64,000 nt of DNA from Synechococcales cyanobacterium S06 (GCA_011391125.1 JAABRE010000010.1:1-64000), one strand, 5' to 3'; shown: positions 53,272 through 64,000, counted from the first letter of the stretch. Numbers and translations: made by a program. The notes: generated by a model not told the origin, from the sequence alone.

Positions 53272-53297
53272 AGCGCTAAAGCGCAACAACAAACCTA
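53272..53297. repeat. Half copy of the GTTGTTGCGCTTTAGCGC repeat
   Basis: Only the right arm (AGCGCTAAAGCGCAACAACA) is present, directly joined to the preceding hairpin and touching the kinase stop at 53295. Confidence 0.65.
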
Positions 53298-55418
53298 CAA
53301 ATTAAAACCGATTTGTTGAAAGCTTTGCTTAATATTTTGCGCTAAGTTATTTTGGTTTTGTTGCTGATAATATTTAACGGCTTGACGATAACTATATAAG
53401 ATTTCTTGGGAATTACTTTCCTTTTCTAAATTAACCATTACCCACCCTAAATTATGATAAGCTTCTGCATAATTTGGATTAATTTCAAGGGCTTTTTGTA
53501 AGTAAATTATTGCCTGTTTCCATTGCCCATTTTGCGCCGATAATGTGCCTAAACGAAACCAAATTAGGGCATTTTGGGAAAATTTGGCGCTAATTTCTGT
53601 GTAAATTTTCAGGGCTTCGGGTATCTTATTTAAGTATTCTAAAGTTATCCCTTGATTTACTAATATCCAGCTCGATATTTCGGGGCAATTACTAGCTTTT
53701 TGAAAGCTTAATAATGCGTCATTCCAGTTGTTATGTTTGGTCTGTTTCCAACCTTTTAAACCCCAACCATAACCGTTATTTGGTACTTGGTTAATAAATT
53801 CTTCAATGCGTCTTTCGGTATCGGTGGATTGTTGGGTAACTACGGCATTATCCAAGGCGAAAATTAGGTAAGGATAAACCCATTGTTTTATTTCTCGTGA
53901 GATTGGCGAATTGTTATTTTTACTTTTAAATATGGCTTGGGTGGCTGCTCGAATTGCTGGTTTATATTGACCTTGATTAATATTAATCCATGCTTGTATA
54001 CCCAAGGAAAAAGCACAATTATTATCTAATTCTAAAGCCTTATTTACTGCTTGTTCTGCTTCTTTCCAAAACCCTATTTTTCCTAATGACCAAGCTAAAT
54101 TTGCCTGTATCCATGCTTGTTTTGTCGTTAATTTAGTAGCTTTTTGCAATAAATTAACGGCTTCTAAAAAGTTACCTTGGCGACATTTTATTAAGCCTAA
54201 AATTCCATAACTTCTACCGTCTTGGGGTTGTAATTTAAGGGCAGTTTGTGCGTCAATTTCTGCTTGTTTGGGATTAATATAAATCTGTAATAAGGCCAAT
54301 TCCACCGCAGCTTCTCCATTTTCTGGCTCTGAATTTAAGCATTTTTGGTAAGCATTAATAGCTAATTTTAGATTATTTTGTTTTGCTAATTCTTGAGCTT
54401 GTTTGTGTAAAGGAGAGATAAATTTTCCGGTTAAGGCTGTTAGTAATTCCTCCATATTTTGAAACCTATTTTCTACTTTTAACCTCATTCCCGTGAGTAT
54501 TATTCTCTCCATTTTTACACTAATTTCTGGTACGATTAAACGAGGATGAATAAGTGGATCTGGTTCATTGCTGGAAACTGCATTTAATCTGTCCAAAGAT
54601 TCAGCAGGTAGTTTATTGGTCAATAATTCATAAATAGATGCACATAAGGCATAAATATCAGTTGCAGCAAAGGTTTTACTGCGATAGGTATATTGTTCAG
54701 CGGGGGCATAACCCGGAGTTAAAACCCTCGTCATATCCCCTGTTTTTCCGGCGATAAATCCTTTTGTTGAACCAAAATCAATTAATATTATTTTATCCAA
54801 ACTTTCATTTAAAATTATGTTATCTGGTTTAATATCTCGGTGCAAAAAGTTATTATTATGAAGCAATTTTAAAGCATCTATTATTTGTAATAAATAGGGT
54901 GTTAACCTAGTTTCGCTAAATTTACCTTCTGATTTTAAGATGGAATATAGGGTTTTTCCCTCGATATATTCCATGACAATATATGCGGTATTATTCTCAG
55001 TAAAAAAATCATATATTTTCGGAATATTCGGATGTTGACATTTTCTTTGATTTTCTGCTTCCTGTTTAAATTTGTTAATTAAATTTTGTCTTTCCGTGGG
55101 AATTATTCCACTTGGCCAAATTATTTGATTACCTTGGCGAGCCGCTTTTTCTGGCCATAATTCTTTAATCGCAACGGGGATTTTTTTATTCACAAAACTT
55201 CCCTTATAAGTAATACCAAATCCCCCTTCTCCTAACAGTTTTTCTATTTGATAATTACCATTTTTTAAGCTGGTATTTAATGGTAATTGATAGCTGCTTA
55301 TTGTTGGTTGATTTGTGTTAGTTTGCTCTTGGTTTTTATTAATTTCATAACCACATACTACACAATTACTACTATTATCTGGATTATCACTTAAACAAGC
55401 TGGACATTGAATAGTCAT
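53295..55418 (-). CDS. Zinc-ribbon Ser/Thr protein kinase with TPR tail
   Basis: The protein has 707 residues. An N-terminal zinc ribbon (Cys5, Cys8, Cys19, Cys22) is followed by a full Hanks-type kinase domain (about 56-335): glycine loop GEGGFGITYKG, Lys85 in VAIKEL, HRDIKPDN with Asp195, and DFG at 214-216. About eight TPRs follow (about 340-700), ending in NYAEAYHNLGWVMVNLEKES. No transmembrane helix is seen. It is the last gene of the 53-64 kb minus-strand cluster with FHA and VWA proteins, which are plausible substrates or readers of its phosphorylation. Confidence 0.93.
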   Translation of the reverse strand: MTIQCPACLSDNPDNSSNCVVCGYEINKNQEQTNTNQPTISSYQLPLNTSLKNGNYQIEKLLGEGGFGITYKGSFVNKKIPVAIKELWPEKAARQGNQIIWPSGIIPTERQNLINKFKQEAENQRKCQHPNIPKIYDFFTENNTAYIVMEYIEGKTLYSILKSEGKFSETRLTPYLLQIIDALKLLHNNNFLHRDIKPDNIILNESLDKIILIDFGSTKGFIAGKTGDMTRVLTPGYAPAEQYTYRSKTFAATDIYALCASIYELLTNKLPAESLDRLNAVSSNEPDPLIHPRLIVPEISVKMERIILTGMRLKVENRFQNMEELLTALTGKFISPLHKQAQELAKQNNLKLAINAYQKCLNSEPENGEAAVELALLQIYINPKQAEIDAQTALKLQPQDGRSYGILGLIKCRQGNFLEAVNLLQKATKLTTKQAWIQANLAWSLGKIGFWKEAEQAVNKALELDNNCAFSLGIQAWININQGQYKPAIRAATQAIFKSKNNNSPISREIKQWVYPYLIFALDNAVVTQQSTDTERRIEEFINQVPNNGYGWGLKGWKQTKHNNWNDALLSFQKASNCPEISSWILVNQGITLEYLNKIPEALKIYTEISAKFSQNALIWFRLGTLSAQNGQWKQAIIYLQKALEINPNYAEAYHNLGWVMVNLEKESNSQEILYSYRQAVKYYQQQNQNNLAQNIKQSFQQIGFNL

Positions 55419-55463
55419 ATTTTTTTATTAATATTAACAAGTTTACATAATAACTTATAAAAT

Positions 55464-55533
55464 GGTGGGTTACGGTGCGAATTAATCTTTATTTTTTGTT
55501 ATCAAAAACTATTCCGCACCTAACCCACCCTAC
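55464..55533. repeat. GGTGGG/CCCACC palindromic repeat, tandem copy a
   Basis: GGTGGGTTACGGTGCGAAT and ATTCCGCACCTAACCCACC form the arms, with a T-rich loop. An almost identical unit follows 82 bp on. Confidence 0.75.
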
Positions 55534-55545
55534 AATATTTAAAAT

Positions 55546-55615
55546 GGTGGGTAACTATGCGAATTAATTTTTATTTTTTGTTATCAAAAACTATTCCGCA
55601 CCTAACCCACCCTAC
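55546..55615. repeat. GGTGGG/CCCACC palindromic repeat, tandem copy b
   Basis: It is nearly identical to copy a, but the left arm reads GGTGGGTAACTATGCGAAT, so the two arms now mismatch at several bases. Both copies lie between the FHA and kinase genes. Confidence 0.75.
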
Positions 55616-55622
55616 ATTTATC

Positions 55623-56180
55623 TTAATTTGTTTGGAATAAAAAACGGATTTTGGCGATCGCAATTTCATCGCCATTATTAATAATTGTCGGGGAAGTAAT
55701 TCTCGCACTAAAACGTTTTTGACCTAATGTTTTAATAAATACTCCATTAGTTGAACCTAAATCTTTTATTTTCCAAACTCCACTTTCTTGATAAATTTCT
55801 GCGTGTTGACGGGATACGGTTTCAGCACCAAGAAAACCCTCTAAATCAATTTCTACCGGTCCAGTATCAGGGTCAAAAATACCAATTACATTAAAGTCTT
55901 CTAAACTAAATTCGGGATTTGGTGCGTTATTTTGTTTAGCTATTAAACTGCCTATTAATTGGTTTTCTGATGTCGTTAAAGAGGAATCAGTTACAATAAT
56001 TGGAGTCGGATTAAAGGGACTTTCTGTTTCAAAATCTACGGTAATTTCTGGGGTACTTTCTATCGGTAATTTATCAAGTATTGGGTTAGTATTAATTGGT
56101 AATTCCGCACCACAAGCGTCACAAAATTCTGAAGCATCGGGGGTTTTATCGTAGCCACAAACTGTACAAACAATTGCCAT
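55623..56180 (-). CDS. Zinc-ribbon FHA domain protein
   Basis: The 185 residues carry a zinc ribbon at Cys5, Cys8, Cys20 and Cys23 (CTVCGY, CDACG). An FHA domain occupies the C-terminal half with the conserved TVSRQHAEIYQ and LGSTNGVFI motifs (Ser-Arg-His and Ser-Thr-Asn), so it should bind phosphothreonine peptides. The middle region (about 30-90) is a flexible linker. Its zinc ribbon resembles that of the kinase encoded next, suggesting they dock to the same partner. Confidence 0.92.
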   Translation of the reverse strand: MAIVCTVCGYDKTPDASEFCDACGAELPINTNPILDKLPIESTPEITVDFETESPFNPTPIIVTDSSLTTSENQLIGSLIAKQNNAPNPEFSLEDFNVIGIFDPDTGPVEIDLEGFLGAETVSRQHAEIYQESGVWKIKDLGSTNGVFIKTLGQKRFSARITSPTIINNGDEIAIAKIRFLFQTN

Positions 56181-56259
56181 TTTTTACTCCTTTATTATTA
56201 AGAATTAAATATTATTAGGGTGGTATTAGTAACATCCAAAAATCGGATTTCTATTCTGC

Positions 56260-57654
56260 TTAAGTTCCAGAAAATTCTCTAATTTTATCCTCATCAATTT
56301 CATCATTTATATCATTATTCATTTTAATTGTTTTACCTTTTGCACCCATTTTAACGGTTTTGCGCGTACCAGCGGAAATTTTACGAGTTTTTCTTAATTC
56401 GTCTATACCGTCATCCAATGATTCTAACATGGCATTGTTACCGATTTTAACGGTTAAACGACGCGCCGTTTCTAACCATTGTTCTGCTTGGTCGGGGTTT
56501 TCATCTGCTATTTTTGTAGCGTTACTAACCAAGGTTGTAATGTTACTTTGCTGCACATATCCCATTACTTCTGGATCAACTTGTACTCCTCCAGCTCCAG
56601 TAATGAATTGTACGACTAGATTTTGCGGGGGCAATTCTCCGCGACGGTTTAACCCCGGAATGTCATAAGTTAAGCCGATTTGAGCGATTCTCACTTTACA
56701 AGTGGGACGACTTTCGACATTAAGTTCAAGTATGAATATGGTTTCATCGTTGGCTTTAGCGCTACCAATGGGGTACGGTTGATTTATTAAGGGAAAATCT
56801 GCTTGCTCTGGATAAACTCGCGTAATTTTTGCTAATTCGACTCCTTTAACTGTCTTAATATTTAAGGCAATATTATTAATAACTTCTTGTTGTATATCTT
56901 GTATTTCATCAAATAATGTTTGAGGTAAGTTACTGATAGAAACCTGTGTCCCAATTGGGTTTTCTCCTACTAAATGATATAAATTTCCTGCGGTAACATC
57001 ACTTAATTTTATTAACAAGTCTTCGTTATAATCTCCTACCCCTAATGCGGTTATTCCTACTCCATTAGTTGCTAATTTTTCGGCTAATTCTTGACATTCT
57101 AACTCGTCAAAGGTTTGCCCATCTGTAAATATTAAGACTCGACGGGCGCTCATTTTTTGGTTATATAACATTTCCAAGGCTAGATTCATGCCTCTACCCA
57201 GACAAGTGCCACCACTAAAGGTATCTAATTGGGCGATCGCCTGTTCAATGGCTTGGGTTTCCGTCGCTGGAGTTAATCCAATTAAAGTGGAAGCTTGGTC
57301 ATCAAATTGAATTAAGGCTAGTCTATCTTTTGAGCTAAAACTATTAGAATTAACTAATTTAGTTAAGGATTCCATAACTAAATCGATCTTAGTTTTTCCT
57401 CCGGTAACTACATTATATTCATTACCGTCTTTAAAGACAGTTTCTCCCGTAGGTTTTGCGGCTCCGACTACCACTTCAAACATTGAACCACTGGTATCAA
57501 TTAATAAAATTATGTCAGTTTCGGGGCGACTATTTGATACTATTTTAGTGGGTTTTAATTTGAGCATTACAAATAATTTTTGTTGTTCGGTATCCGCTGG
57601 CAAAAATTCCCGATGGGGTGTAATACTAACTAATAATGGTTGTTCTGTTGACAT
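56260..57654 (-). CDS. Cytosolic VWA-domain protein with basic Thr-rich tail
   Basis: The 464 residues have a complete MIDAS site: DTSGS (about 51-55), Thr in SGGTCLG, and Asp in IFTDGQ. A beta-sandwich-like region follows (about 250-350), then a helical segment and a basic tail (RKISAGTRKTVKMGAKGKT) near the C-terminus. No signal peptide or transmembrane helix is seen. In kinase/FHA clusters VWA proteins often scaffold. The Thr residues in the tail are candidate kinase sites for FHA binding; this is inference. Confidence 0.9.
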   Translation of the reverse strand: MSTEQPLLVSITPHREFLPADTEQQKLFVMLKLKPTKIVSNSRPETDIILLIDTSGSMFEVVVGAAKPTGETVFKDGNEYNVVTGGKTKIDLVMESLTKLVNSNSFSSKDRLALIQFDDQASTLIGLTPATETQAIEQAIAQLDTFSGGTCLGRGMNLALEMLYNQKMSARRVLIFTDGQTFDELECQELAEKLATNGVGITALGVGDYNEDLLIKLSDVTAGNLYHLVGENPIGTQVSISNLPQTLFDEIQDIQQEVINNIALNIKTVKGVELAKITRVYPEQADFPLINQPYPIGSAKANDETIFILELNVESRPTCKVRIAQIGLTYDIPGLNRRGELPPQNLVVQFITGAGGVQVDPEVMGYVQQSNITTLVSNATKIADENPDQAEQWLETARRLTVKIGNNAMLESLDDGIDELRKTRKISAGTRKTVKMGAKGKTIKMNNDINDEIDEDKIREFSGT

Positions 57655-57674
57655 TGTTTTGACTCCTAAATAAC

Positions 57675-58064
57675 TTAATCAAAAATACTTTCTAAAGGTG
57701 GTAAAACTCCGAAAGATGGTTCTATTATAGACAAATCTGGAGGCAAAATTTCGGGTTTTTTCTGATTTCCTTGGTCATTAAGTTGATACAATTTATCCTC
57801 AATTAATAGAGGTAAATCTAACTTAATTATAGTGGAACGATAACCTTCGGCGATGTCTTCAATCCAGTAATTAATGATTTGATCAAGATGGTTATTTTTC
57901 ACAGCACATAAACTTTGATTTTGCAGGTTTAAGCGCAAACTTTCCCGAATTTCTTGGTTAAAAATTTGTTCGGGGTTATCTTCTTGATCTTGTCTTAAAT
58001 CTAAGCTATATTTACAGTTTTTATTATCAGTTTTAACCTTTAATTCTAAGGTATATTGCACCAT
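57675..58064 (-). CDS. Hypothetical protein in the kinase/FHA/VWA cluster
   Basis: The 129 residues are not assigned to a family. An N-terminal beta-like segment (VQYTLELKVKTDNKNCKYSL) is followed by a helical middle and a Pro-rich C-terminus (EILPPDLSIIEPSFGVLPPL). It is soluble. Spacing is tight, 20 bp before the VWA gene and 5 bp after the membrane gene, so it belongs to the same transcript. Confidence 0.65.
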   Translation of the reverse strand: MVQYTLELKVKTDNKNCKYSLDLRQDQEDNPEQIFNQEIRESLRLNLQNQSLCAVKNNHLDQIINYWIEDIAEGYRSTIIKLDLPLLIEDKLYQLNDQGNQKKPEILPPDLSIIEPSFGVLPPLESIFD

Positions 58065-58069
58065 ATTTG

Positions 58070-58912
58070 TTACTGGGATGTTTTAACTTCAATAATTACA
58101 TTACCTAATTTTCGTTTCTCACCATTTACTAATTCATGGGTTAATTTTTGCATATTGGGATTATATTCATGGTTAAAATTAATGAACACTTTTTGCTTGT
58201 CTAAATGTATTTTAGCAGTCATAGGTAAATAACCCTGACTTGGGGGTAAATAAATATGACAATTACTCGCACTTCCTAATATTATTGGTTTATCACCGAG
58301 GGAAATGGTCTTTTCTTCTTTGGTTGTATCCCAATGTATCACTAACCATGCTTTTCTCACAATATTTTCGGTAATTGTTAACATTAATCCGATAAAAATT
58401 CCTTTAAAAGAGTCACCAATTGCGACACTAATTAAAGGTGAAATTCCTAAATTATTTAACATAATCTGAAAAAATGCACCTAAAACTCCCGCCAAAAAAC
58501 CCGCAATTAAAGCCGGTTTTTTCGGTAAATTTGGAATAATTGGAGCGATAAAAAAGGCCATAATTAAACTTTCAATTCCCCAAGCTAAACAATGAATTAA
58601 AGTAGTATTTCCTAACCCAATTTTAGTAATAACTAAACCAAATCCTCCTAAAAAACCAGCTAAGGCACTTTTTAAGATAATTGGCGTTATATTTTGATAA
58701 CTGGTGGATAACTTTTTTAAATACCAATTTTGTGATAAAAATAACCCCAAACCGATACCAATTCCGATAAAAGTATCCCAAAAAAGAACACCAATAATAT
58801 TATTATGACCGATAGGATAACCAATTATTGAGCCAATAAATGCACCTATTCCACCTAAGATTGCGAAAATAATTAATTTTTGTACTGTATCTTTGTTAAG
58901 TAAGTTTTTCAT
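58070..58912 (-). CDS. Multi-span membrane protein with FHA-like C-terminus (short)
   Basis: The 280 residues have about six membrane helices in the N-terminal 190 residues, rich in Gly (IFAILGGIGAFIGSIIGYPI), then a cytosolic beta domain with KPIILGSASNCHIYLP, resembling the start of an FHA domain. The SRxxH and SxN motifs are not clear, so phosphothreonine binding is doubtful. It resembles the protein at 62188-63288 in architecture. The two may form a pair. Confidence 0.75.
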   Translation of the reverse strand: MKNLLNKDTVQKLIIFAILGGIGAFIGSIIGYPIGHNNIIGVLFWDTFIGIGIGLGLFLSQNWYLKKLSTSYQNITPIILKSALAGFLGGFGLVITKIGLGNTTLIHCLAWGIESLIMAFFIAPIIPNLPKKPALIAGFLAGVLGAFFQIMLNNLGISPLISVAIGDSFKGIFIGLMLTITENIVRKAWLVIHWDTTKEEKTISLGDKPIILGSASNCHIYLPPSQGYLPMTAKIHLDKQKVFINFNHEYNPNMQKLTHELVNGEKRKLGNVIIEVKTSQ

Positions 58913-58920
58913 TTTCTAAA

Positions 58921-60231
58921 TTACCATTGCTCTTTATTAAATTTATTATAATTAAATATTTCTATTTGACGATATTGTGCAACTGCTATTAATTTCAGGC
59001 AATTTTCATATTCATTTATTTGACCTTTTTGATTATATAAATCAGCAGCTTGTTGATAGCTTTCAATTGCTTGTTGATAATTTTCTAAATTAGAATAAGC
59101 ATTTCCTTTATTAAAATAAGCGCTAACATATTCATGATCAAGTTCAATTGCTTGATTATAATCATTAATAGCTTGTTCGTAATTTTCTATATAATAATAA
59201 GCGTTACCTCGTTGATTGTAACTATTGGGATCAGAAGATATAATTTCTAAAGCTTGATTATAAGATTTTATTGCTTCTTGAAACTTTCCAGATTCTAAAT
59301 AATTATTACCTTCTTGGTAGTAACTATTGTAAGTATCTAAAATTTCTTGAACAATTTTTAAGTTTTTATAAGCATCATAATATTGAGGATTAATTACTAA
59401 AGCTTGTTTGTAATCTTCCACTGCTTTTTCGTATTCTTTTAAATTATTAAAAGCTACTCCTCGATTATTATAAGCTTTAGAATATTTTGGATTAATTTCT
59501 ATTGCTTTACTATAATCTTCTATAGCTTTTTCATAATTTTCTTCATCAAAATAAACGTTTCCACGTTGATAATAAATTTCGGCATAATTAGGGTTAATTT
59601 CTAAACCTTGATTATATTCTTGAATCGCATTATTATATTCACCTAAACCAGAATAAATTATACCCATAACATAGTTTTTGAAAGGAATATTAAGGCTTTC
59701 AATAGTAATTATAAAAATATATAGTAAGACACCAAAGAAGAATAAATATGATTTATTGTTATTTTTGGGCTTAACAATATTCGTTTGTATTTGTGTTATT
59801 AATTCTTGATTATTACTTACAGGAATAGTTGAATTGTTATTTTTTTTATCCTCAAAAATCCTGATCTTATTTTTAAATTTAGCTAAGTTTGAATCATTTG
59901 TATTAAGAAAATAATTCATTTGTTCCTTAAAACTTTCAAAATATTTAACAGTATCTTTGCTTTGTTTTTTACCCTCATTAAGCCATAATAACATTTCGGA
60001 TCTAGTTTCAGGTAAAATAACTGTTCTTAACGTTAATAATCTCACCATTTCTGATGTATATATTTTTTCAGTCAAAGCTAATTTAACGTTATTATTATTA
60101 GCAAATATTTTTTGCCAAAATTCCTCTTTATCTTCCCCTAAATTATCTTCAATAATTTGTAAATGTTCTAATTTAATTTTGACTCGACGAGTTAATCCTT
60201 TAATTGCTCTAATTATTTCTTGTTCATCCAT
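58921..60231 (-). CDS. Membrane-anchored TPR protein
   Basis: The protein has 436 residues. The N-terminal 150 residues are helical and charged (MDEQEIIRAIKGLTRRVKIK). One transmembrane helix spans about 160-182 (LFFFGVLLYIFIITIESL). About six TPRs follow (about 185-425), each of the form EYNNAIQEYNQGLEINPNY. The TPRs and N-terminus lie on opposite sides of the membrane. A protein-contact role within the cluster is likely. Confidence 0.85.
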   Translation of the reverse strand: MDEQEIIRAIKGLTRRVKIKLEHLQIIEDNLGEDKEEFWQKIFANNNNVKLALTEKIYTSEMVRLLTLRTVILPETRSEMLLWLNEGKKQSKDTVKYFESFKEQMNYFLNTNDSNLAKFKNKIRIFEDKKNNNSTIPVSNNQELITQIQTNIVKPKNNNKSYLFFFGVLLYIFIITIESLNIPFKNYVMGIIYSGLGEYNNAIQEYNQGLEINPNYAEIYYQRGNVYFDEENYEKAIEDYSKAIEINPKYSKAYNNRGVAFNNLKEYEKAVEDYKQALVINPQYYDAYKNLKIVQEILDTYNSYYQEGNNYLESGKFQEAIKSYNQALEIISSDPNSYNQRGNAYYYIENYEQAINDYNQAIELDHEYVSAYFNKGNAYSNLENYQQAIESYQQAADLYNQKGQINEYENCLKLIAVAQYRQIEIFNYNKFNKEQW

Positions 60232-60274
60232 AATTTTGCTCCTTATTGCTGTTTAAAAATCGGATTTCTGATAT

Positions 60275-60904
60275 TTATTTTTGCTTTTGTAACCATTGAC
60301 GAAATTCTCTAAGTAAGGCATTTTCACCCATTTGACCTCTTTTTTCTATAAATTTTAAAATATCATTTTTTGATAAAATTGACAACACTTGAGAGTGATT
60401 TCGTATCTCGTAAACCTCGCCCTCTAATACATAAATCGTCAATTCTTGACCATCAAAACGCCATATTTCGCCAATTCCAAGGGCTGCATAAATACTTAAA
60501 CGGTCCAAAGAACTGCTAGTAATATCAATTTCGATCGCCAAATCGGGAGCGGGGTCAAAATTTAAGTCAAAATTCAACTTGCCCCTGATAATTTCTTCAT
60601 GGGTAATGTAGTAACATTCATCTGGTTCAATGCCACGTTGTAAATCTTTTCTACTCCAGGTTGTTGAACCCAAACTATAAATTTCTAAGCCTAAAACTTC
60701 AGTTGTTGTTTCTACCAAACGTGCCAAAAACCGTTTATTAACCTCATGTTCGGGTAAAGGAGTCATAATTTCTAACCTTCCTTGATCATAAATTAATTTT
60801 TTACTAGGATTTTCTGCCAAATCGAGAGCTAAAGCTTGATAGGTTTCCCAACGCACCCCCGTTAAGATAGTTTGGTTTTCTTTTCTTGTTATAGTTTGAA
60901 TCAT
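60275..60904 (-). CDS. Uma2-family (DUF820) protein
   Basis: About 209 residues. A Uma2 domain with ITPLPEHE-like MTPLPEHEVNKRFLARLVET, DLAIEIDITSSSLDRLSIYA and a conserved GIGEIWRFDG is visible. The fold is PD-(D/E)xK nuclease-like, and the role is not established. I place the start at ATG 60902-60904 with AAGG upstream instead of the GTG three codons earlier. It lies within the signalling cluster but may be a passenger gene. It is a different subfamily from the Uma2 at 26880, without the repeat tail. Confidence 0.85.
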   Translation of the reverse strand: MIQTITRKENQTILTGVRWETYQALALDLAENPSKKLIYDQGRLEIMTPLPEHEVNKRFLARLVETTTEVLGLEIYSLGSTTWSRKDLQRGIEPDECYYITHEEIIRGKLNFDLNFDPAPDLAIEIDITSSSLDRLSIYAALGIGEIWRFDGQELTIYVLEGEVYEIRNHSQVLSILSKNDILKFIEKRGQMGENALLREFRQWLQKQK

Positions 60905-60958
60905 GGATAACACCTTGGGTAAATTGTTATTTAGAAATCCTGTTTATATTTGAAAAAT

Positions 60959-62185
60959 TTAAGCTTTGTTTTTTAAATATTTTCCCCACAAATAAAAGGG
61001 TAAAACTCCTCCTAAACCTAATATTAATATGATACAACCTATCATAATTAAACGGATATTTAAAGGTAGTGATCGCCCAAAAACTGGTATAGTATAATCC
61101 TTTATTTCAGAGTTAATAACTGATTTATTTTCAGGAATATTAATCCTAACTTTAACTTGATGTTGTGAGCCTCTTTCGGCATTAGGTTGAGTATAACTAA
61201 TTTCATATTCCCCTAATAAAGCATTGAGAAATAACTCTAAATTAGCCGCAATTTCGTCTGATTTTCCTGAAAATTCAGCGATCCCCCCCGTTAAATTGGC
61301 AATTTGTGCCAGTCTATCTTGATCCACAAATTCATCTTCTGGTACTCTTTTTTTATTAACATCAAATCGGGTTGCCGGTTTAGTTAATTTATATTTATTT
61401 GCTAATTCTTGGGGGGTTAAACCATAACCTAAAGTATGGACAATTATTTGGTCATAAGTAGTTAATAATGCGGTTAAAGTATCAAAGTCTTTTTGTTCAT
61501 TCGGGCGATTATGATAACCATCTGAAAGCAAAATAATAGATAATCTGGGCGGTTTTTCACCTGATTTTTTGGGTGGATAAAAGTTAGGATTATCACGATT
61601 GGCAAAAAATCTAACTGCTTTGGTTAAGGGGTCATAAAGATTAGTAGAAGCACAAGGATCAATGGTTTTTAAATAATCTAGTTGATTTTGTAACTTAATA
61701 TCAGCAGCTGAAAAAAACTTATTTAAACTTTCATCATTAACATTATAACCCTGACATTTTTCATTACCTTCCCCGAAAGGAACAAGGGAAATTTGCGTAT
61801 TTCCACCGCGTTTAGCCGTGATTTTAGTTAATTCTTGAATTGCGTTAATTGCACCGTCTAATTTGCGTTTTTTACCGCTATCTTGAGAGCGCATACTACC
61901 ACTCATATCCAATAAAACAATAATGTAAGCTGGTGGTGGAGTCGCAACTTCGGGAGATTTCCAGTTAGTTAATTTGACAGGTTTATTATCAATAAATATC
62001 TGAAAATTTTGCTCCTGTAAACCCATAATTGGCTTTTTATTTTTGTCAGTAACTTTAACTCGAATGGTTGCGTCTTCTTCCTCAAATAAAGGAGTATCTG
62101 TAATGATAGCTTGTTGTGCTAAAGTCGGGGTAATTAAAGCACTTAACATTAATAAAGATAAACCTAATTTTTGTGTAATTTTCAT
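60959..62185 (-). CDS. Exported, C-terminally anchored VWA protein
   Basis: The 408 residues have a signal peptide (LGLSLLMLSALITPTLAQ), a beta-type domain (about 30-80), then a VWA domain with MIDAS residues DMSGS, Thr in STNLYDP, and Asp in LLSDGYHN. A C-terminal transmembrane helix, LIMIGCIILILGLGGVLPFY, is followed by a basic end. The VWA domain is thus outside the cytoplasm. It is 2 bp from the next gene upstream, so they are translationally linked. It may be the extracytoplasmic partner of the cytosolic VWA protein. Confidence 0.87.
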   Translation of the reverse strand: MKITQKLGLSLLMLSALITPTLAQQAIITDTPLFEEEDATIRVKVTDKNKKPIMGLQEQNFQIFIDNKPVKLTNWKSPEVATPPPAYIIVLLDMSGSMRSQDSGKKRKLDGAINAIQELTKITAKRGGNTQISLVPFGEGNEKCQGYNVNDESLNKFFSAADIKLQNQLDYLKTIDPCASTNLYDPLTKAVRFFANRDNPNFYPPKKSGEKPPRLSIILLSDGYHNRPNEQKDFDTLTALLTTYDQIIVHTLGYGLTPQELANKYKLTKPATRFDVNKKRVPEDEFVDQDRLAQIANLTGGIAEFSGKSDEIAANLELFLNALLGEYEISYTQPNAERGSQHQVKVRINIPENKSVINSEIKDYTIPVFGRSLPLNIRLIMIGCIILILGLGGVLPFYLWGKYLKNKA

Positions 62186-62187
62186 AA

Positions 62188-63288
62188 TTATCCTTGGGGG
62201 TCAAAAAAGCGATTATAATAAACAAAACGATAGATTTTATTAGTGGTAAATTCTGCGTCTTTAGGGTAAAAAGTGATTAAATTATTGTGTTTTAAAGTGA
62301 TTTTTTTTTGTGAACCTCCTAAACGATTGCCATTAAGGGCAATCAAACGGAAAAATCTTGGATTAGGTATTAAAAAAGTTTCCCTTTTCTGTATTTCTAA
62401 ATCGGCAATATGAAGCGGAATATCAGGAATAAAAACATGGGAATCTGGGTCAGAACCAATGGTAATTTTACCTTTTGCTGGCAATCTAATTGATAATCCC
62501 TCCTCAATTTTTTCCTGTTCACTATCACTAACAAAGCTTAAAATATTAGTCTGAATTACCGGGTAAGATGGCAATAATTTAATGGTTTTTTGTGGTTGAG
62601 AATTAGCTTCTTCTTCATCAAAAAAAGTATCGCCTGTATATTCAAAACCTGCGCCAGCGCGTAAAGCTACTAAGTAACTAGGAGAATTTGTCAAGCTAAA
62701 TGTTAAACCTAATAATAGACCTAAAATGGCAAAACCTAAAGGATCTTCAGCCGCTTGTAAAAATGGGGGCATTTCTGTTAATTTAGTCCGCAAAAATTCA
62801 AACAAAATTGCTGCTACTAAACTGGCAAAACTAGCACCAATTAAACTAACAGTAAATCTGCGCCAAAAACGTTTAGGATCGCCAGCTTCAACGGTTTCCC
62901 AACGCCAAGTTAAACCCTCAGTTAAACCGACAGAAATCCCAATTATTAACCAACCAACTACCCGAATAATCGGAGCAGGAATTTTCAATTGTGGTATGAA
63001 TAAAATTTGAGAAATGCCTCCCGAAACTAAACCTAAAACTGCACCTAAACCTAATGCAATAAAAAAGGGAATTATGGCTTTTCTAAGACACAGTTTTGGT
63101 CGAGTGGGATTACTAATAAAGATTTCGTTAATGACCATTCCTACTGCAATAGAAATGGCAATACAAGGAAATAAAACCATTTCAGGAAAGCGTTTTAATA
63201 ATCCTAAATCAGAGAGAAATACTTGGCCAATATTCCACCCAATTAAAGCTGATGTGATTCCCGCTAATATATAAAGGTATATTCTCAT
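62188..63288 (-). CDS. Multi-span membrane protein with FHA-like C-terminus (long)
   Basis: The 366 residues have about six to seven Gly-rich membrane helices (residues 1-215), then a linker and a C-terminal beta domain with KGKITIGSDPDSHVFIPDIP, resembling an FHA domain start. Canonical SRxxH and SxN are not seen (HIADLEI takes the place), so it may bind another ligand. It pairs with the exported VWA gene 2 bp downstream. It resembles 58070-58912. Confidence 0.78.
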   Translation of the reverse strand: MRIYLYILAGITSALIGWNIGQVFLSDLGLLKRFPEMVLFPCIAISIAVGMVINEIFISNPTRPKLCLRKAIIPFFIALGLGAVLGLVSGGISQILFIPQLKIPAPIIRVVGWLIIGISVGLTEGLTWRWETVEAGDPKRFWRRFTVSLIGASFASLVAAILFEFLRTKLTEMPPFLQAAEDPLGFAILGLLLGLTFSLTNSPSYLVALRAGAGFEYTGDTFFDEEEANSQPQKTIKLLPSYPVIQTNILSFVSDSEQEKIEEGLSIRLPAKGKITIGSDPDSHVFIPDIPLHIADLEIQKRETFLIPNPRFFRLIALNGNRLGGSQKKITLKHNNLITFYPKDAEFTTNKIYRFVYYNRFFDPQG

Positions 63289-63434
63289 AAATTACTTATA
63301 ATTTTAGTCAATTTAGTTGTTAATTTAACGTTTAAATAAGTTGATAAAAAGATTATACACTATCTTTCTTGTTTTGAGTCCCGTAATCATATTTAATTTT
63401 ATTAAGATTTATTAAAAATAATAAATTAATAAGC

Positions 63435-64000
63435 TTAAAAACTAACCAGATTATACAATACACTAATGACACTGGCTAAAATTGCTGTAACAATTACCCA
63501 GACAAAAAACTCTCTAATTCTTAATCCTAATTTTTCTTTAAAAGTTAGATTATATTTATCTTTAAACCACATAAATCTATATAAAAAATAAAACAAATAA
63601 GCAAAAATAAAGGCAATCCAATGATTAATAAATGAGCCAAAAAATATAAAAATAATTGCCAAAGGAACATTCATGATTATCGGAATAATCATAATTATTT
63701 CTGAGTCTAATTCTGCGGTTATCAAGGCAAAAATTACATAAATAATAAACCACATTAACAAATATAATAAACTAATTAAAAAGCTTTTAATTAAAGGATA
63801 ATCTTGAAAAAATTGAGTAACTTTCCAGGAAATTATGCTAATATTTGGCTTACAATAATAATAAAATTCAATAATTTTATTTTTAATGAAGTTAAATAAT
63901 ATATCTAATTTTAAAGTGAGACATAAAGTAATAATTGGCAAGATACAAACTTCAATTAGATTAACATAACGATAAACTGTCAGGTTATAAATCTGAGTTG
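63435..64000 (-). CDS. Membrane protein, 5' end beyond the right edge
   Basis: The frame ending at 63435 has about four membrane helices (for example SFLISLLYLLMWFIIYVIFA and WVIVTAILASVISVLYNLVS). A TTG at 63939-63941 could start a 168-residue protein, but the frame is open to the edge (TQIYNLTVYRYVNLIEV), so the real start is probably outside. The family is unknown. It lies 146 bp upstream of the long FHA-like membrane gene and could begin the operon. Confidence 0.6.
   Translation of the reverse strand, partial: TQIYNLTVYRYVNLIEVCILPIITLCLTLKLDILFNFIKNKIIEFYYYCKPNISIISWKVTQFFQDYPLIKSFLISLLYLLMWFIIYVIFALITAELDSEIIMIIPIIMNVPLAIIFIFFGSFINHWIAFIFAYLFYFLYRFMWFKDKYNLTFKEKLGLRIREFFVWVIVTAILASVISVLYNLVSF

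Follow-up and report, generated by a model that had tools for sequence, protein, structure and literature searches.

Could a row of genes for a protein kinase, FHA proteins, VWA proteins and membrane proteins make up one signalling system in a cyanobacterium, and if so, of which kind? The question is raised by a 64,000-nucleotide stretch of Synechococcales cyanobacterium S06 (GCA_011391125.1, JAABRE010000010.1:1-64000; contig C11, bases 1-64000, of a 4.8 Mb genome), hereafter called the window. An initial annotation, made from the sequence alone, described nine or ten same-strand genes at its right end as a candidate membrane signalling module of a set that it could not name. All ten frames are present and open on the minus strand where it had placed them, and the close spacing that it reported holds (gaps of 2-79 bp) save for two gaps of 146 and 204 bp. 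The row does extend further than described: the tenth frame (63435-63998 in the window) is the end of a 451-amino-acid gene (P451) truncated by the window edge, and the same-strand run continues for about 5.5 kb to contig position 69497, with the rest of this gene, one GAP-like coupling protein (GAP) and three P-loop proteins beyond position 64000. The run in the window covers two thirds of a conserved cyanobacterial operon, at the downstream end. We propose, at roughly an even chance of being right, that this operon makes a trans-envelope GTPase platform switched by Arn-like threonine phosphorylation.

Relatives were sampled in 120 genomes of the window's order, with neighbourhoods taken around the relatives of GAP, and by an FHATM1 profile that gave 93 loci, of which the best 80 were kept, all from cyanobacterial records. 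GAP relatives occur in 22 of the 120 genomes, and the common gene order is GTPase3-GTPase2-GTPase1-GAP (one to four copies)-FHATM1-VWAx-[zero to five lipoproteins]-FHATM2-SMALL-VWAc-ZFHA-PP2C-kinase. Here FHATM1 and FHATM2 are the membrane proteins with FHA-like ends, VWAx and VWAc the exported and cytosolic VWA proteins, and ZFHA the zinc-ribbon FHA protein (Table 1). Order and strand of the successive constant pairs are kept in 65/65, 64/64, 65/65, 76/78, 94/94, 57/57, 57/57, 49/49, 44/44 and 29/30 loci, although some loci are shared between the two collections and the pair counts are not all independent. For example, FHATM1 and VWAx are neighbours in 94/94 loci, and SMALL and VWAc keep identical strand and order in 57/57. 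This co-conservation is far beyond chance. The gene-order check that the initial annotation had suggested thus bears out a membrane signalling module, the order being co-conserved across cyanobacterial genomes and the parts co-occurring.

In eleven loci (L049, L051, L120, L122, L123, L125-L129 and L131), however, VWAc, ZFHA, PP2C and kinase are all absent, and an AAA+ ATPase of about 540 amino acids follows SMALL. Seven of these loci begin with a gene that weakly matches HipA_C and a radical SAM-type gene, and the sampled rows of this second type form one clade with full support in the FHATM1 tree. Since the second type keeps the GTPases, GAP, FHATM1, VWAx and SMALL, these are the constant core, and the phosphorylation module is one of two alternative plug-ins on it. 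FHATM1 serves as the marker gene of the system. Pairs of FHATM1 and VWAx with no GTPases, GAP or phosphorylation module nearby also occur, in Okeania and relatives (L070, L081, L087-L091, L093 and L096); some of these contigs are short.

The existence of a core independent of the kinase bears on the frame offered by the initial annotation, namely a TerY-P type triad of kinase, PP2C and VWA, here with extra membrane proteins. Those three parts are indeed present. However, GTPases, GAP, FHATM1 and VWAx are the most constant genes and persist where the AAA+ ATPase replaces kinase, PP2C and VWAc; the centre is formed by the three GTPases and the coupling protein, which lie outside the window. Besides, ArnB leads the solved matches of VWAc, the TerF-like VWA match is weak and found in 4/13 VWAc sequences, and no tellurite-resistance (ter) genes were found in the run. 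TerY-P is therefore not the closest frame, and we consider this explanation very improbable.

The phosphorylation module nevertheless belongs to the system where it occurs. FHATM1 is found in 19/120 genomes of the order and VWAc in 15/120, all 15 being among the 19 with FHATM1. PP2C is present in 18/120, that is, in 15/15 genomes with VWAc and 3/105 without it. The Fisher p-values for the co-occurrence of VWAc and PP2C with the system are 8e-16 and 1.7e-16; these values are descriptive, because genomes that are related do not count as independent observations. In G017, G022 and the window's genome the parts are on different contigs, and the link is therefore not merely physical. The three genomes G035, G044 and G057 have a PP2C of this system's family while FHATM1 and VWAc are absent.

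The initial annotation saw no phosphatase, and there is none in the window's gene cluster itself. In the relatives, however, a PP2C gene lies between the ZFHA and kinase genes (Pfam PP2C, 4e-15 and 2e-13), and the window's genome carries the ortholog alone on contig C96 (G000:C96:38784-40571, 50% identity), so that loss from this genome is ruled out. As a side observation, residues 1 to about 340 of PP2C (e.g., L039:1430-3250 and L141:8785-10575) show weak protein-kinase similarity, with a consensus lacking the HRD motif; this part is possibly a pseudokinase. The catalytic motifs of kinase and PP2C are invariant or nearly so in the aligned homologues, the kinase Lys, HRD and DFG being invariant in 15/15.

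The FHA and VWA partners of these enzymes point to an archaeal precedent. The best PDB match of the ZFHA family profile is ArnA (5a8i, 4.3e-14), spanning both zinc ribbon and FHA and ahead of GarA and OdhI, and the Ser, His and Asn motifs are invariant in 43/43 homologues. For the VWAc profile the best match is ArnB (8s05_A, 1.9e-12), carried by the VWA block. In Sulfolobus, ArnC phosphorylates the C-terminal region of ArnB and PP2A dephosphorylates it (PMC6509490; PMC7472852). As long as ArnB is unphosphorylated, the zinc ribbon of ArnA is what docks on it; once ArnB is phosphorylated, binding passes to the FHA domain (PMC12852372). The zinc ribbon shared by kinase and FHA protein had been suggested to be a common dock, and the ArnA ribbon on ArnB supplies a precedent in the best solved matches of this very pair. 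The ribbons were read from sequence, and all 43 FHA homologues and all 15 kinase homologues keep the four cysteines. Kinase and FHA are fused in L064 and L136, which speaks for a direct connection between the two.

The tail of VWAc would be the substrate. T423, T433 and T442 are invariant in 13 aligned sequences, and 37 of the 43 distinct tails have three K/R-T-x-K/R motifs, the background being 0.07 per 75 residues. In an ungapped HMMER block these residues fall on ArnB T344, T354 and T363; shuffling gives p 0.002 for this register, but the block alone scores only 4.5 bits, and the match of the tails is tentative. ArnC phosphorylates ArnB T353 and T363 within 5 min (PMC6509490; PMC12852372). 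T344 and T354 lie within peptides reported as phosphorylated in a 2019 study, while a 2026 paper gives the first (LIETT) motif as unphosphorylated (PMC6509490; PMC12852372). No ArnB C-terminal family is among the Pfam matches of VWAc.

The three P-loop proteins are GTPases; in the alignment, Walker A and a Walker B of the form D-x-x-G-E are conserved in each of them, and a Walker B glutamate is the mark of DO-GTPases (Kaur et al., 2020; PMC7159879). The window's GTPase1 and GTPase2 score 35.3 and 32.4 bits against the cut-off of 27 in the DO-GTPase families of Pfam, and at E<=0.01 as many as 18 of 22 members have DO-GTPase matches in Pfam. As for the usual partners, no Pfam GAP1 match was found in 18 GAP members at E<=10 (HMMER, listed families), GAP1-N2 (PF20013) exceeded its cut-off in 0/59 genomes of the phylum, and no FNIII or GASH component is among the operon genes scanned with Pfam. 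Because these parts were not detected, we do not file the operon as a member of the GAP1-type systems; to judge from its sequences, it would work like a DO-GTPase system, as a variant outside the GAP1-type ones.

How could such GTPases be tied to the envelope? The GAP model is confident (predicted local distance difference test, pLDDT, 90), and its N-terminal domain weakly resembles TagF (Foldseek probability 0.77, E 0.024); Pfam gave no TagF match in GAP, and the GAP profile only chance-level matches to PDB sequences. P451, a GAP paralogue without the N domain, also has the helical HA-HB domain of GAP, and TPRTM, the membrane protein with TPRs, has HA alone (phmmer matches of TPRTM: P451 9e-25, GAP 8e-17), which leads us to read HA-HB as a putative coupling domain, homotypic or shared. 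Fusions of GAP-type domains with FHATM1 are present in L098 and L099. Stand-alone genes resembling the helical region of GAP and P451 also lie outside the operon (L047:10305-12002 and L050:9606-11768, one of them fused to TPRs) and recall effector-associated domains.

The AlphaFold model of FHATM1 (pLDDT 78) has six transmembrane helices and a C-terminal domain whose top Foldseek hits are FHA domains, with GarA, OdhI and DgcB-FHA at probability 1.0 though at E-values of 5e-3 or weaker. The FHA-like ends of FHATM1 and FHATM2 are related to each other (hhalign probability 94%); hhalign gave no relation to the ZFHA domain, so kinship with the latter was rejected. In neither protein do the aligned homologues keep phosphothreonine-binding residues, the GR and SxxH motifs being absent in all, and FHATM1 is therefore read as a scaffold, not a phospho-receptor. 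A KTIKL-like motif of FHATM1 was set aside, being present in the window copy and not conserved in homologues. Relatives of FHATM2 often have an N-terminal exported VWA (3.4e-20 in a plasmid relative), which the window copy lacks.

On the periplasmic side, PG_binding_1 is found C-terminal of the transmembrane segment in 8/18 GAPs, the window GAP being without it. Between VWAx and FHATM2 or SMALL lies a variable slot for lipoproteins, and one to four GAP paralogues occur per locus. The linked lipobox proteins of relatives have a constant beta domain and variable ends, namely serine-hydrolase (beta-lactamase-like), ARC6-IMS, AmiA-like amidase, and weakly SPOR- or MecA_N-like. These wall-related ends and the PG_binding_1 of GAP could also speak for a host-beneficial regulator of envelope or cell division, which senses the state of the peptidoglycan and tunes wall synthesis or septation accordingly, without any conflict role. 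However, the system is absent from most cyanobacteria and plasmid-carried, unlike core division regulators, and several loci, including the window, are without wall-related parts; we regard such a regulator as rather unlikely.

In the phylum as a whole, FHATM1 was found in 17 genomes of a 291-genome sample, every one in the window's order, and in no sampled genome outside it. Operon copies are on plasmids of Trichormus, Tolypothrix, Nostoc and Gloeothece, the plasmid tblastn search returning cyanobacterial records only. Among them, plasmid B of Trichormus variabilis ATCC 29413 (35.8 kb) carries the whole set, which takes up about half of the plasmid. A divergent dynamin-family gene (L135:4277-6922) adjoins the operon on Nostoc plasmid pNsp_h. 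In some genomes, e.g., of Dulcicalothrix and Trichodesmium, multiple copies lie in separate parts of the FHATM1 tree, a pattern that transfer would give. The flanks vary by locus; priA, carA and the RNase III gene occur there, as does a gene for a TraG-like coupling ATPase.

In five loci (L038, L054, L057, L060 and L101) a TraG/TraD-like type IV coupling ATPase is directly upstream of GTPase3 on the same strand, a hint at conjugative elements. Together with copies on plasmids typed mobilizable or conjugative, these ATPases would suit a function of the mobile elements themselves: conjugation, mobilisation or surface exclusion of cyanobacterial plasmids or integrative elements. However, the ATPase gene is missing at most loci, several loci lie next to housekeeping genes, and plasmid B is typed non-mobilizable. 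This explanation is accordingly improbable.

Plasmid carriage and patchiness tilt the balance toward a role in sensing conflict or danger. The DO-GTPases have been predicted to be conflict modules, of which an actinobacterial subset comes with kinase, PP2C and VWA, a theme that the paper confines to actinobacteria (Kaur et al., 2020; PMC7159879). The operon could then serve in biological conflict, against phages or other invaders, as a system of DO-GTPase type whose switch thresholds a response ending in membrane damage, containment or cell death. The patchy occurrence within a single order, the plasmid copies, the several copies per genome in a mixed gene tree and the variable accessory genes are all in its favour. 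Against it, no toxic effector was identified, the checked flanks include the housekeeping genes priA, carA and RNase III, GAP1 was not detected, and FHATM1 is not found in any phage record or viral contig searched. Moreover, the window genes match no defence models beyond generic kinase and Uma2 families; the kinase matches to PD-T4-6 and mad6 were rejected as generic kinase-domain similarity, not membership. Conflict defence is a plausible role, though this reading as a whole stays tentative and short of an even chance.

Taken together, we prefer the trans-envelope platform with its phosphorylation switch. On the cytosolic side, three paralogous DO-GTPase-like TRAFAC GTPases would act at the inner membrane with the GAP-like protein, whose N-terminal alpha/beta domain, helical coupling domain and single transmembrane segment would tie the GTPase state to the envelope, and which in relatives may end in a periplasmic peptidoglycan-binding part. 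The membrane core would consist of FHATM1 (six transmembrane helices and an FHA-fold scaffold end), FHATM2 and the exported VWA, while the lipoproteins of relatives, with their constant beta domain and variable wall-related ends, are likely periplasmic sensors. The kinase would phosphorylate the Thr-rich tail of VWAc, ZFHA would shift from loose binding by its zinc ribbon to tight binding by its FHA domain, and PP2C would reset the switch. In the window's genome PP2C is encoded elsewhere and the periplasmic equipment is reduced. Gene set, order, co-occurrence, domain content, the intact motifs of kinase, PP2C and Walker sites, and the relationship to ArnA and ArnB are observed directly; assembly into one complex, the threonines that would be phosphorylated, the sensing of wall or periplasm, and the output are our extrapolation. 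From the domain content, the signal is probably periplasmic or wall-related, and the output is most likely an envelope-stress or conflict response.

Several points weigh against this proposal. The GR arginine of ZFHA is present in 11/43 homologues only and missing in 32/43, being Ile in the window copy, a loss that would weaken canonical phosphothreonine binding. The alignment of tail with tail is weak (4.5 bits), significance being confined to the VWA block and to the match of the whole zinc-ribbon FHA protein. GTPase3 of the window is only weakly DO-GTPase-like (22.9 bits, below the cut-off). The window copy, given its missing parts, could function in another way or be in decay, yet all its frames are open. 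To our knowledge, there is no biochemistry for any part.

A wider claim may be put forward with more doubt. The operons would represent a cyanobacterial class of trans-envelope GTPase systems apart from the GAP1-type ones, in which an Arn-like switch and membrane FHA-fold scaffolds gate three GTPases by the state of periplasm or wall, plasmid-carried and serving conflict or danger sensing, with a second type that swaps the whole switch for one AAA+ ATPase; this we hold to be possible but on balance unlikely. DO-GTPase systems are so far computational predictions in the literature searched. Here a near-fixed gene order comes together with a model strain whose 36-kb plasmid carries the operon in full, with predicted phosphosites and with a solved archaeal template, and therefore sensing and action of such GTPase systems become directly testable.

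The features of the window and of the adjoining contig are listed in Table 1. Pfam confirms the kinase, TPR, FHA and VWA domains that had been assigned, and also a Uma2 nuclease gene that was left out of the original list of parts. According to the locus maps, the Uma2 gene is a non-constant member of the operon, and it is probably a passenger in the run. It matches the PADLOC candidate PDC-S17 at 1.5e-44, and among the operons of the second type, L049 and its relatives contain a Uma2 gene too (cluster c3). SMALL has no Pfam match. The window thus has the system in reduced form: its GAP has no peptidoglycan-binding end and its FHATM2 no VWA, and neither lipoproteins nor a linked PP2C are present.

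Table 1. Genes of the operon in the window and to its right on the same contig.
Feature	Position	Strand	Basis
KIN: N-terminal zinc ribbon, Ser/Thr kinase, TPRs, 707 amino acids	53295..55418	-	Pfam Pkinase 1.5e-40, TPRs
ZFHA: zinc ribbon and FHA, 185 amino acids, ArnA-like	55623..56180	-	FHA 3.2e-12
VWAc: cytosolic VWA, basic Thr-rich tail, 464 amino acids, ArnB-like	56260..57654	-	VWA 1.9e-19
SMALL: conserved soluble 129-amino-acid protein, fold unassigned	57675..58064	-	neighbour of VWAc in relatives
FHATM2: transmembrane segments and C-terminal FHA-like domain	58070..58912	-	alignment
TPRTM: N-terminal helical coupling domain (HA), then transmembrane part and TPRs	58921..60231	-	phmmer, Pfam TPRs
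Uma2-family nuclease gene	60275..60913	-	Pfam Uma2 3.8e-23
VWAx: signal peptide, periplasmic VWA, C-terminal transmembrane anchor	60959..62185	-	VWA_2 1.1e-7, alignment
FHATM1: six transmembrane helices and FHA-fold domain (predicted cytosolic)	62188..63288	-	AlphaFold, Foldseek, alignment
P451: HA-HB helical coupling domain and transmembrane segments; window holds 3' part	63435..64000, gene to 64790	-	
GAP-like coupling protein, 582 amino acids, right of window	64856-66604	-	
GTPase1, right of window	66877-67764	-	
GTPase2, right of window	67830-68663	-	
GTPase3, right of window	68712-69497	-	

Then, is the set comparable to any known system? We found no description of this gene set in cyanobacteria in the literature searched, supplements being outside the search. 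TerY-P and type VI secretion are analogies only. The threonine phosphorylation pathway of the type VI secretion system (PpkA, PppA, Fha1, TagF; PMC5995506) likewise has kinase, PP2C and FHA, and TagF binds Fha there (PMC5995506). A TagF-like fold is possibly present in GAP, the likeness being structural and weak, and no genes of the secretion machine are among the operon genes scanned with Pfam. The cyanobacterial cbSTKII kinases (PMC2176072) share the C-terminal TPRs on the kinase; that survey covers kinases, not this gene set.

A nearest kind can nevertheless be named for each half of the system, contrary to what the initial annotation supposed: DO-GTPase systems for the GTPases and ArnA-ArnB for the switch. 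As in the DO-GTPase GAP1-N2 systems (PMC7159879), there are paralogous GTPases with a Walker B Glu, variable components and a downstream coupling protein able to end in transmembrane segments, and one actinobacterial theme has zinc-ribbon kinase, PP2C and vWA as well. However, there are three GTPases here and one or two there, the coupling protein here is not recognised as GAP1, the zinc-ribbon FHA protein, FHATM1 and FHATM2 and the lipoproteins are added, and the hosts are cyanobacteria, which are not among the main GAP1-N2 hosts in that paper's text (PMC7159879). As in ArnA-ArnB of Sulfolobus (PDB 8S05 and 5A8I; PMC6509490; PMC7472852; PMC12852372), a zinc-ribbon FHA protein and a VWA protein are partners, together with a Ser/Thr kinase and a phosphatase, and the VWA protein, for which ArnB is the best solved match by profile, has a Thr-rich C-terminal region. 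The phosphatase, however, is PP2C here and PP2A there, and the FHA Arg is mostly lost here. Moreover, the Sulfolobus pair regulates motility genes, whereas its counterpart here shares an operon with GTPases and membrane proteins. The comparison thus connects a switch for archaeal motility with a membrane system of bacteria.

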